Notes under the pieces: generated by a model
The model's input: only the letters and a program-made list of their open reading frames with translations
Database searches by the model: none
Told to the model about the DNA's origin: nothing
Virus record (IMG/VR): IMGVR_UViG_3300032011_000011
Span: 1 to 58,468 of that record
Source: a virus
DNA length: 58,468 bases
Reading direction: 5' to 3' (one strand)
In this document: one piece after another, positions 7,476-24,201 of the stretch
Numbering within the stretch: position 1 is the stretch's first letter
Layout: each line of letters opens with the position of its first letter
Program-made: the position numbers and the translations under genes

Positions 7476-8321
7476 TTAATAGAGGAGTGTGTGTAGTTGT
7501 TTGATACGTGCAAGAGGTACAGCAGCAGCTTGAGGAACTATGGAGTTACCTAAGCACTTAAGTCTGTCCATCCTGTTGGAAAACCCATCATCTCCTCTAC
7601 AAATGGTGGGTTGAGATACGTACCCTCTCCAGTCAGGTTCGAGTGTGTGTGGTTGAGTACTCCAGCAAGGCGTTTCTTCTTGGCTGCCTTCTCGTAGTTG
7701 GTGTTCTCCCCTGAGTCCTTCCAATCTCTGGCAGTCGGTGTTGGTAGCGTCAGTAGTGCTGCTAGTAGCGGTGTCCCTCCCTGCTTGAATGGGACTTTCT
7801 GTTCTATCTTCGTTGACCCTAGAGGGGTAGGCAATAAACCACAGTCTTTCTCTGAGGTGACAGGCTCCCACATCTTTTGCCGAAACAACCGACCACTCAA
7901 CATCAAACCCTGCTTTGGTAATTTCTTGGAGAATTTGCTGGAAAGTTTCCCCGTCTTTGTGAGAGATGAGATTTCTAACATTTTCAAAGAGGATGAACTT
8001 AGGTTGTATCTGCCGAGCCAATCGGAGGACGTGAAAAAATAGCCCACTTCTTGTGCCCTCTCCAATACCTTCTTGTCTACCTGCAATGCTGACGTCCTGA
8101 CAGGGAAAACCTGCTGTGATGACTTGGAATTGACCTTCTGTGGCGTTGAACTCGGTGATGTCATGGTGAATCGGTACGTTAGGAAAGTTTTTGTGGAGGA
8201 CTCTCTGACAGTAGGTGTCAATCTCTACAAATTGAGTAGTCTCGAAGCCTCCTACTAGGCGTTCAGCAGCGTAAGAAAAGCCACCTATACCACTGAATAG
8301 GTCTAGAACTTTAAGCGTCAT
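7476..8321 (-). CDS. dcm: DNA (cytosine-5) methyltransferase
   Basis: Transfers a methyl group from S-adenosylmethionine to cytosine C5 in DNA. All core motifs are visible in order: motif I VLDLFSGIGGFSYAAE (residues 5-20), motif IV with the catalytic Cys in GFPCQDVSIAG (about 90-100), motif VI ENVRNL (about 133), motif VIII HLRERLWFIAYP (about 175-186) and motif X CLGNSIVPQAA (about 256-266). At 281 residues the target-recognition segment between VIII and X is short. Phages use such enzymes to evade restriction or mark their DNA. The gene couples to the upstream ORF by TAATG. Another long frame is nested in it (7550-8221). Confidence 0.93.
   Translation of the reverse strand: MTLKVLDLFSGIGGFSYAAERLVGGFETTQFVEIDTYCQRVLHKNFPNVPIHHDITEFNATEGQFQVITAGFPCQDVSIAGRQEGIGEGTRSGLFFHVLRLARQIQPKFILFENVRNLISHKDGETFQQILQEITKAGFDVEWSVVSAKDVGACHLRERLWFIAYPSRVNEDRTESPIQAGRDTATSSTTDATNTDCQRLEGLRGEHQLREGSQEETPCWSTQPHTLEPDWRGYVSQPTICRGDDGFSNRMDRLKCLGNSIVPQAAAVPLARIKQLHTLLY
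7550..8221 (-). CDS. Frame nested inside dcm, GLLPTP...GFPTGWT protein
   Basis: A 223-codon frame on the same strand as the methyltransferase, shifted +1 and lying entirely inside it. It contains SSSSLKMLEISSLTKTGKLS, LPKQGLMLSGRLFRQ, DCGLLPTPLGS, LLTLPTPTARDWKDSGE and YLNPPFVEEMMGFPTGWTDL. From memory, phage and metagenome proteins with repeated (W/L)PTPTA and a terminal LNP.(F/W)VE..MGFP.GWT form a recurring family annotated as methyltransferase-associated or hypothetical. Here those motifs are the +1 reading of Dcm motifs VIII and X. It could be a true overlapping gene or a recurring shadow; I cannot decide from one sequence. The ATG at 8221 has no strong ribosome site. Confidence 0.4.
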   Translation of the reverse strand: MTPTVRESSTKTFLTYRFTMTSPSSTPQKVNSKSSQQVFPVRTSALQVDKKVLERAQEVGYFFTSSDWLGRYNLSSSSLKMLEISSLTKTGKLSSKFSKKLPKQGLMLSGRLFRQKMWEPVTSEKDCGLLPTPLGSTKIEQKVPFKQGGTPLLAALLTLPTPTARDWKDSGENTNYEKAAKKKRLAGVLNHTHSNLTGEGTYLNPPFVEEMMGFPTGWTDLSA

Positions 8322-21476: not shown

Positions 21477-23753
21477 ATGAGCGATAGCAATACTAAATCC
21501 GCAATCGATTCTATCGTTAAGTCGGTTATCGAACGTGATGGTTCTGGTACAGCAGATACGATGCTGATCAACGCCCATTTATCTCAAATGAAGATGTTTG
21601 GGATAAGGCAAGGAGTTGAGTTCTTTCCACAACAAGATAATTTAGGTACTCAAAGATTTGATTTTATTCAACAGGTTATTAAATTTAATAAATTAGATGC
21701 ACGGCTTGATTCAATTTGGGATAGATTTTTAGCTTATGGAAAAGGTTTATTTTATATAAGACCTACAAGAAAAACTTATCGTATCTATTGGTTTGATAAA
21801 GATTCATATAGGACTTATTACACACCAGAGGGTGACTTAGAAGAGGTAATTATTATTTATGGGTACAAAGTTCGTTCTAAAAAGGGATTTAAAGGAGCTG
21901 GTTTAAATACAGATAAGCGTTATATGCGTTTACGTATTACTGCAACTGAGATTGAAGAGTTTCATAGTGAACAAGAAATAACTTTTGATCAAGAAAACGT
22001 TAGTTTTGCATCTCAGAACAAGAAAGTATTAGAAAACACTATGGAGTTTATTCCATGTGTTGAAGTATTTAACAATCCTGATGCTTTCGGAACGGATGGA
22101 GCTGGTGAATTTGAGTGGTTAGGTAATCAAATAATTGCTCATGATGAGATGGTTAAAAACATAAGGGCAAACTTATCGTTCTTTGGTAATCCAACTTTAT
22201 TATCTTCTCGTCCTAAGCAAGACATTGTTGAAAGTAGTTCAGATAGTGAAGTACAAAGACCAAGTATTTCAAGTCAATCAGGTTTTCAATCTAATTTTGA
22301 TTTATCAAGTTCGACGTTCAAGCAAGATCCAGTAACTAGAACGCAGCCAGGTTATATAGGTAAACCCGGTTCAGGTCTACGTGTTCCAAGAGTTATTGCT
22401 AATTTGGAGCCAGCAGATCGTGTTGGTTTTATTACACCTAATGCAGTTAGTACCGATCAGGCTAGGTATGCAGAACAACTACGTAGTGAGCTACGGTTGG
22501 CCTTAGGAGGCATAGATGACCTAAGTATTACAAATGTAACCGCAACGGAGATTAAATCGGCATATGGACGTGTCAGTGCTACTGCAAAGAAGAAATGCTT
22601 ACAACTGTATACTTATGGAATTTGTAAGGTTTTTGAATTAATACTTTTTCAAGAAGAACAAATATTTAGAAAGTCACTTGCTTTTGTTTCTAATATTAAA
22701 TATCCAATAGTTCCTGAAGATTTAACTGATGAAAAAGCAGTTGAAAAGTATGAAAAAGGAAAGATGAAATATGAGATTAAATTACAGCAAGCAGTTGATT
22801 TATCATTAGAAACAGGAGAGATACCAGATGGTGTTGTAGGACTGGCACCCGATGGAGATAGGACTATCCTATGGCGTTGGATGGGTCCTGTTTATGAAGA
22901 CACACCTCAAGATAAATTAAACCAATCTATCTTCACAAGAAACCTCCAAGAATTAGGCGTTGATAGCATAGAAGCACTGAAGTACCTATTTCCTTCTAAA
23001 ACTGACGACGAAATAGCAACGATGCTATCTGGTTATCCGTTTAGAATTGTAGGAGAGGTACAAAGAGCTTTCTCAGCTTTCATTGATTTAGCTAATCAAG
23101 AAATGAGAACGCCACATCCGCAGCAACCGAATTTACCGATGGCTGCAGATCCGAGATTAGATCTCACTCCATTTTTATATAAAACACTAGAGCAACTCCA
23201 GAAGGAATTAACTTATGCAGGACGCTACCGTAGCGCCGACCCAATCGGCACCCCAAGTATCCCAGACCCAGCCGACCAGCTACGTGGCTCCAGCGGCTCA
23301 GGCACCAGTGGCTCAGGCACCAGTGGTGGGTACAGCTCCCCAATGGGTGGCAACATCCCAGCCAATGGCGGCACCAGTTCCACAAGCGCAAGCGCAGATG
23401 GGGATAGCGGCTCCACAATACAGCCCTACACCGTCAAGTTACCAGGAATATCAGGCACCCCAACAGCAGGAGAGTCCATACAAGGAAGCCTTCAACAAGG
23501 TGGTCGGGCTCCTGAGTTCACCAGTCCAGTTCCCGTTCCAGGGTCAACAGTCGACTCAGACTCCAGCAGCAGGCCAGGTCAACTACGCTTCCCAACAGAC
23601 AACCCCATACAGCAACGCGGTTCAGCCGACCTCTATGCCTGGGACCGTGAGCAACCAGGATTACTCCAACGCCTCTTCCCAAACATCTACGGGGATAACA
23701 GCGGAGCAACTAGCGGCAAGCGGAGTAAGCGACGCAAGTCTTCAAGTAATTGA
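21477..23753 (+). CDS. Portal protein with long disordered C-terminus
   Basis: 758 residues. The large N-terminal body has FDFIQQVIKFNKLDARLDSI, RIYWFDKDSYRTYYTPEGDL and ADRVGFITPNAVSTDQARYA, the helical-core style of phage portals, and lies directly after TerL. The portal forms the dodecameric DNA entry ring at one capsid vertex. From about residue 580 the protein is Gly/Ser/Thr/Pro-rich and probably disordered, ending in a basic tail (KRSKRRKSSSN). This tail is encoded in the same DNA as the N-terminus of the next gene, out of frame. Confidence 0.85.
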   Translation: MSDSNTKSAIDSIVKSVIERDGSGTADTMLINAHLSQMKMFGIRQGVEFFPQQDNLGTQRFDFIQQVIKFNKLDARLDSIWDRFLAYGKGLFYIRPTRKTYRIYWFDKDSYRTYYTPEGDLEEVIIIYGYKVRSKKGFKGAGLNTDKRYMRLRITATEIEEFHSEQEITFDQENVSFASQNKKVLENTMEFIPCVEVFNNPDAFGTDGAGEFEWLGNQIIAHDEMVKNIRANLSFFGNPTLLSSRPKQDIVESSSDSEVQRPSISSQSGFQSNFDLSSSTFKQDPVTRTQPGYIGKPGSGLRVPRVIANLEPADRVGFITPNAVSTDQARYAEQLRSELRLALGGIDDLSITNVTATEIKSAYGRVSATAKKKCLQLYTYGICKVFELILFQEEQIFRKSLAFVSNIKYPIVPEDLTDEKAVEKYEKGKMKYEIKLQQAVDLSLETGEIPDGVVGLAPDGDRTILWRWMGPVYEDTPQDKLNQSIFTRNLQELGVDSIEALKYLFPSKTDDEIATMLSGYPFRIVGEVQRAFSAFIDLANQEMRTPHPQQPNLPMAADPRLDLTPFLYKTLEQLQKELTYAGRYRSADPIGTPSIPDPADQLRGSSGSGTSGSGTSGGYSSPMGGNIPANGGTSSTSASADGDSGSTIQPYTVKLPGISGTPTAGESIQGSLQQGGRAPEFTSPVPVPGSTVDSDSSSRPGQLRFPTDNPIQQRGSADLYAWDREQPGLLQRLFPNIYGDNSGATSGKRSKRRKSSSN

Positions 23754-24201
23754 TCATTTCGGTGCTGACGCTCCAGCAATTCTTAATGACTATGCTTGTA
23801 AGGTAGAAGATTCACTTATTAAAACTGATAGTCAGTTAAAGCAAGGTGTAGGTTTACTAAAACAGTTAAATGCTGAGCATAAGAAATATACAAAAATTCT
23901 TACTGATCCTAATGTTTTAGCAGACTATACAACAAAGTTCTTTGGTCCTAATGGTCCTCATCCTGTAACTCCTGCAGCACCTGCTCAAAGGCAACAAGCA
24001 GCGCCAACAGCTCAGAGAGTAGCTCCTCAACGTCCTGAGATGCCTATTCCTCCACAGCCTCAAGCTGCCGCTTCTCCAAGTGATTTCTGGAATAACTTCG
24101 GTTCTGCTGCTGATAGAGATCCTCAAAATGCATGGAGGTATCTAAGTGCTGCCCAGCAAAATCCTGAGGTCTTCCGTCAGAAGCTCCTTGTAATGGAATA
24201 A
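23215..24201 (+). CDS. Assembly/scaffold-like protein overprinting portal
   Basis: 328 residues with an ATG at 23215 preceded by AAGGA at good spacing. Residues 1-165 are Gln/Pro/Ala/Thr-rich and low complexity. From about 180 the sequence is helical and charged (ASLQVIDHFGADAPAILNDY, LIKTDSQLKQGVGLLKQLNA), then a Pro/Gln-rich linker and a terminal helix (NAWRYLSAAQQNPEVFRQKL). Position between portal and capsid and this composition fit a capsid scaffold or head assembly protein. The first 539 bases overlap the portal gene in another frame. Confidence 0.75.
   Translation: MQDATVAPTQSAPQVSQTQPTSYVAPAAQAPVAQAPVVGTAPQWVATSQPMAAPVPQAQAQMGIAAPQYSPTPSSYQEYQAPQQQESPYKEAFNKVVGLLSSPVQFPFQGQQSTQTPAAGQVNYASQQTTPYSNAVQPTSMPGTVSNQDYSNASSQTSTGITAEQLAASGVSDASLQVIDHFGADAPAILNDYACKVEDSLIKTDSQLKQGVGLLKQLNAEHKKYTKILTDPNVLADYTTKFFGPNGPHPVTPAAPAQRQQAAPTAQRVAPQRPEMPIPPQPQAAASPSDFWNNFGSAADRDPQNAWRYLSAAQQNPEVFRQKLLVME

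Follow-up and report, generated by a model that had tools for sequence, protein, structure and literature searches.

Two overlapping frames at a phage methyltransferase locus

The window, by which we mean the complete 58,468-nucleotide stretch analysed here, is a 58-kb virus record (IMGVR_UViG_3300032011_000011) that contains phage genes for a terminase large subunit, a virion structural protein and an endolysin. On its reverse strand, positions 7476..8321 hold an ORF of 281 amino acids with an ATG start, here termed alpha, which is predicted to encode a Dcm-type cytosine-5 methyltransferase. In a Pfam search alpha matches PF00145 over residues 3-178 (E 9e-50), and it also matches phrog_363 (E 1.2e-73). 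Motif positions, together with hhalign for motif X, assign to this ORF motifs I-VIII and X, including motifs I, IV (PCQ, within GFPCQ at 8097..8111), VI (ENV), VIII (RERLWFIAYP, 7824..7853) and X (DRLKCLGNSIVP, 7533..7568). Motif IX is absent from frame 0 in an hhalign comparison with the conventional IX-X profile, and sits instead in the +1 frame.

That frame carries a second ORF, beta, nested within alpha on the same strand (7550..8221, 223 amino acids), with TTG as its first possible start and an open frame from 8224. An earlier note on this DNA had placed an open frame at this position and had listed in it the motifs GLLPTP, LPTPTARDWKDSGE and LNPPFVEEMMGFPTGWTDL. The ORF coordinates bear out that placement and all three motifs are found, with GLLPTP as the +1 reading of the motif VIII codons (RLWFIAYP) and MGFPTGWTDL on the codons directly preceding motif X (DGFSNRMDRLKCLGN), both as the note had it. 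Read from its start, beta passes close to alpha motif IV with the +1 reading QQVFPVRTSALQ, at the position of QLTLFxEDSPAKTS in relatives, and continues through a conserved segment, LPKQGLMLSG (7892..7921, reverse strand), which appears as WPRSGMMRNG in relatives. Two cassettes follow on the same strand, the first (7754..7837) starting LLPTPLGS and the second (7622..7753) starting LTLPTPTARDWKDSGE.

The protein family to which the earlier note had referred does exist, as beta matches phrog_1008, labelled 'DNA methyltransferase', with an E-value of 1.5e-19, and beta relatives reach E 1.8e-30. Alpha gives a weak match to the same family (E 0.068), located towards motif X. Beta has no match in Pfam or NCBIfam, and when its full alignment was searched as a profile against the PDB, chance matches alone were returned. 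AlphaFold models of beta alone are of low confidence, with pLDDT 58 for the window protein (54 rows) and 61 for the protein of locus L150 (114 rows), and a Foldseek search with the window-beta model gave no match below E 1.

Elsewhere in the window, on the forward strand, a 758-aa virion structural ORF (21477-23753) is overlapped for approximately 540 bases by a long ORF in a different frame (23215-24201), the true start of which may be later.

Motif IX and the division between the frames

The C-terminal segment of beta (TYLNPPFVEEMMGFPTGWTDL, 7559..7621, reverse strand) lies in +1 over the alpha segment that precedes motif X. Its profile (lnPxfvEwlMGFPxgWT) aligns with conventional motif IX (RxLTPRECARLQGFPDxF) at 88% in hhalign (E 3e-6), and 20 column-shuffled versions of the same profile reach at most 3%; frame 0 aligns to the conventional IX-X profile mainly via its motif X end. 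By this profile comparison, the +1 sequence LNPPFVEEMMGFPTGWTDL is identified as methyltransferase motif IX. The earlier note had missed this identity of MGFPxGWTDL, which is the source of the likely function.

Rearranged relatives agree with a beta C-terminus that is motif IX. In L178 (a Streptomyces plasmid), L179 (an Embleya plasmid) and L091 (mycobacteriophage Alma), alpha goes no further than motif VIII, and the cassettes, motif IX and motif X are all in the +1 ORF, while in L176 (Gordonia phage CheeseTouch) IX and X lie in frame 0 and the cassettes are still in +1. A profile of the IX-X segments of split relatives matches plant DRM cytosine-5 methyltransferases over IX-X (E 0.008). None of the loci examined has I-VIII, the cassettes, IX and X together on one chain in a single frame. 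A mixed arrangement from an indel is seen at L107:1453-2263, where alpha does not extend past motif VIII, +1 holds motif X and the third frame holds a motif IX reading (SFVEEMMGYEIGWTDL). In L069 and L073, frame 0 of the Dcm is broken near the N-terminal third and the +1 frame is open, which may reflect sequencing error or decay.

We propose, with a probability of roughly 0.86, that a single DNA segment at this locus encodes both chains of a two-polypeptide cytosine-5 DNA methyltransferase. Alpha, in frame 0, would supply motifs I-VIII and X, and beta, opening near motif IV in +1, would contribute a conserved N-terminal part, at least one LPTP cassette and motif IX. Beta would be translated by internal initiation in the window phage too, would pair with alpha to form one active enzyme and would provide, through its cassettes, the target-recognition surface; such an enzyme would probably serve to shield phage DNA from host restriction by marking it. 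Since the nested frame would be the second methyltransferase half, carrying motif IX, phrog_1008 can be read as the family of the beta subunit.

In many relatives, beta has a ribosome-binding site and a start of its own within the alpha gene. Where the +1 frame opens within the Dcm gene, a +1 start codon is preceded by a Shine-Dalgarno match of 6 nt or more in 22/62 viral loci (mean of 3.6 and maximum of 8 in shuffles) and in 14/57 genomic loci (mean of 2.0 and maximum of 7 in shuffles), as illustrated by clostridial examples in which acaaaggagagttttt-ATG leads into MSEQ..EQLTLFPxDSPAS. The same scan found no Shine-Dalgarno sequence at the beta start of the window, nor at a candidate internal ATG start (MTSPSS..., 8147..8164, reverse strand); at the position of this ATG (8164), ATG is present in 25 of 46 related loci and ACG in 15, which only mildly supports its conservation as a start. 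These observations bear on programmed frameshifting, an improbable reading in which a ribosome would slip from frame 0 into +1 to produce one chain with I-VIII, cassettes and IX. The window's own +1 start without a Shine-Dalgarno sequence would suit such a slip, and a single +1 shift would complete one chain in the split relatives L178, L179 and L091. However, pairs of Shine-Dalgarno sequence and internal start are enriched, the +1 constraint starts well upstream of motif VIII, and frame 0 is open through to motif X, which a slip ahead of the cassettes would not require.

The distribution of beta was established on loci retrieved with the nested protein itself. In the viral set (the best 80 of a longer list) beta is read in +1 relative to a Dcm in 80/80 loci. 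Scanning genomes with the beta alignment and the pattern [WEY][LM]MG[FY]Px[GE][WH]T yielded 264 loci, and in 79/80 of the best 80, which were kept, beta again lies in +1 of a Dcm, the other being cut by a contig end. Among these best 80 of 264, motif X is in the alpha ORF in 78 and in the beta frame in one (L223), and the loci come from Proteobacteria, Actinobacteria, Firmicutes, Bacteroidetes, Planctomycetes, Spirochaetes and others, with one archaeal MAG. The earlier note had suspected that the family was itself the +1 frame of Dcm genes, and had named members away from any Dcm as the observation that would contradict this; the suspicion holds for 159 of the 160 beta-seeded loci, and no member away from a Dcm occurs among the 80 viral and 80 genomic loci. 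The same distribution argues against beta being a separate protein of other function, for instance in regulation or counter-defence, whose overlap with the methyltransferase would be incidental. In favour of such a protein, beta alone does lack a confident fold and a Pfam match, but it possesses the motif IX that is missing from alpha, it is fused to motif X in the split relatives and no beta was found away from methyltransferase genes among the beta-seeded loci, so that we regard this reading as very unlikely.

Constraint on the two frames

The first viral set was fetched with nested-protein patterns, one of which, FVEEMMGF, is itself part of the nested frame, and the analysis of the region between motifs VIII and IX was therefore repeated on a second viral set (again the best 80 of a longer list) fetched with the Dcm alignment and the N-terminal patterns GFPCQD and FSGIGG only. 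A +1 ORF matching the nested family is present in 80/80 of these Dcm-seeded loci, and the frequent in-frame stops among close Dcm homologues that the earlier note had listed as contrary evidence are not seen. Between motifs VIII and IX, divergence at frame-0 codon positions 1, 2 and 3 is 0.45, 0.27 and 0.27, and at motif IX it is 0.42, 0.18 and 0.22, as compared with 0.23, 0.15 and 0.60 before the nested gene and 0.27, 0.15 and 0.59 after it. The VIII-IX pattern is characteristic of protein coding in +1, in that the substitutions sit on the +1 wobble base. In a windowed profile of the beta-seeded set, position-3 divergence has by codon 109 dropped from approximately 0.6 to 0.3-0.4, and it is back at 0.5-0.65 right after the +1 stop; the very low value of 0.05 at the FVEEMMGF site in this profile partly reflects retrieval bias. 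From VIII to X, the amino-acid sequence of frame 0 is under little constraint.

Stop codons were assessed by shuffling synonymous codons in the nested span. With the Dcm protein of the window kept, 6.8 stops are predicted in +1 and 0 are seen, and the third frame has 17 stops over the same span. Across 79 genes, keeping the alpha protein predicts 6.6 +1 stops per gene and 0 are seen, the nested ORFs having been chosen as open frames, while keeping the beta protein predicts 8.0 frame-0 stops per gene, with 0 seen. In the VIII-IX region of the Dcm-seeded set, the expected totals are 197 stops in frame 0 and 81 in +1, and neither frame contains any. Since the shuffles predict stops and none are seen, both frames are actively kept open. 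As a control we used 71 conventional M.HhaI-like viral genes, which have a mean of 13.4 +1 stops, with 0/71 open in that frame, and a position-3 divergence of 0.55-0.58 over their whole length. Related loci are not independent, so that probabilities multiplied across genes are not meaningful, and the argument rests on the control family and the shuffles.

The divergence pattern, the shuffles and the conventional control together identify the nested frame as a real overlapping gene, and by these sequence measures the +1 frame of the window is a selected protein-coding gene; the question raised in the earlier note, whether it was an overlapping gene or an annotation shadow, is thus decided in favour of the former. 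That Dcm codon constraint alone keeps the +1 frame open and apparently conserved, with no protein made, is highly implausible given the missing stops, the drop in position-3 divergence and the closed +1 frames of conventional enzymes, even though some common motifs are forced by the Dcm (LTLFAVDFPAKTS, for instance, is the +1 reading of motif IV codons) and public phage records are inconsistent, some having only the +1 ORF called (L088, L089 and L090, the last being Vibrio phage 1.236.O) and some only the Dcm.

Target recognition and relation to known systems

Between the conserved N-terminal part of beta and motif IX lie 1-8 units of approximately 30-45 residues each, starting LPTP or WPTP. 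Clustering with blastp gives about 38 cassette clusters that have at least two different left and at least two different right neighbours, an approximate count given that the automatic cut put N-terminal sequence into a few of the units. Modular exchange at the usual site of the target-recognition domain, in the only frame that is constrained at the amino-acid level there, suggests that recognition is held by beta, and the cassettes are thus probably its target-recognition part. This assignment is not backed by the precedent of M.EcoHK31I, because the target-recognition domain of that enzyme was predicted in the larger subunit (PMC3404938), whereas here frame 0 is weakly constrained from VIII to X and beta carries the shuffled LPTP cassettes. 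Somewhat better than even, in our estimate, are the odds of the broader reading that a large class of cytosine-5 methyltransferases across phages and bacteria has the entire unit for recognition, made up of shuffled LPTP cassettes and motif IX, on a separate protein read wholly in +1 of the catalytic gene, such that cassette recombination would change DNA specificity and frame 0 would need only to stay open. The +1 proteins of L108:1622-2740 and L167:1658-2989 contain a KTTIEHWFRRD/KTTIDHWLRSD...YP stretch, similar to stretches that are presumably present in other phage DNA methyltransferases.

In M.EcoHK31I, the small subunit was reportedly found by Lee, Kam and Shaw in 1995 to be encoded in an alternative frame inside the gene of the large subunit, a nesting that the small subunit of the window would share. 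M.EcoHK31I consists of two polypeptides, the larger with motifs I-VIII and X and the smaller as the only place of motif IX (PMC3404938), which is the same motif division as in the window. It differs in belonging to a restriction-modification system. Judged by motif division and the reported nesting, the window locus is a further case of the M.EcoHK31I kind. M.AquI is likewise a natural two-polypeptide cytosine-5 methyltransferase, and its division into I-VIII and IX-X is seen in L178, L179 and L091, but the window departs from it in keeping motif X on the larger chain and in having all of beta inside the alpha gene. The ShiLan domain, a hidden HNH endonuclease in the alternate frame of a phage methylase gene (PMC11855218), resembles the present case in that the alternate frame of such a gene encodes a protein, and differs from it in being a homing insertion of patchy distribution and not an enzyme subunit. 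At L137:1658-2599, the +1 protein runs past motif IX into an HNH/zinc-finger-like stretch (RHHPDYSRP...LCPPCH...CAHCGKEF), with frame 0 open to motif X, an extension reminiscent of that hidden HNH (PMC11855218).

The label of phrog_1008, 'DNA methyltransferase', is silent on the family being the +1 partner of Dcm. For the related phage and bacterial genes, beta is mostly either left without annotation or listed as having no known function. A general description of the arrangement was not found in the open-access literature searched, the partial coverage of which makes this weak evidence; on that footing, the generality of the arrangement, the identity of a hypothetical family as the beta subunit, the evidence for two-way selection and the cassettes are apparently new. 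Under the two-polypeptide reading, a recurrent 'hypothetical' family would become the missing half of a common enzyme, alpha expressed alone would be without motif IX and probably without recognition, and pipelines that call a single frame would miss one subunit. The loci would also constitute a large natural collection of genes coding in two frames, one altered by cassette exchange and the other obliged to stay open, useful for the study of overlapping-gene evolution.
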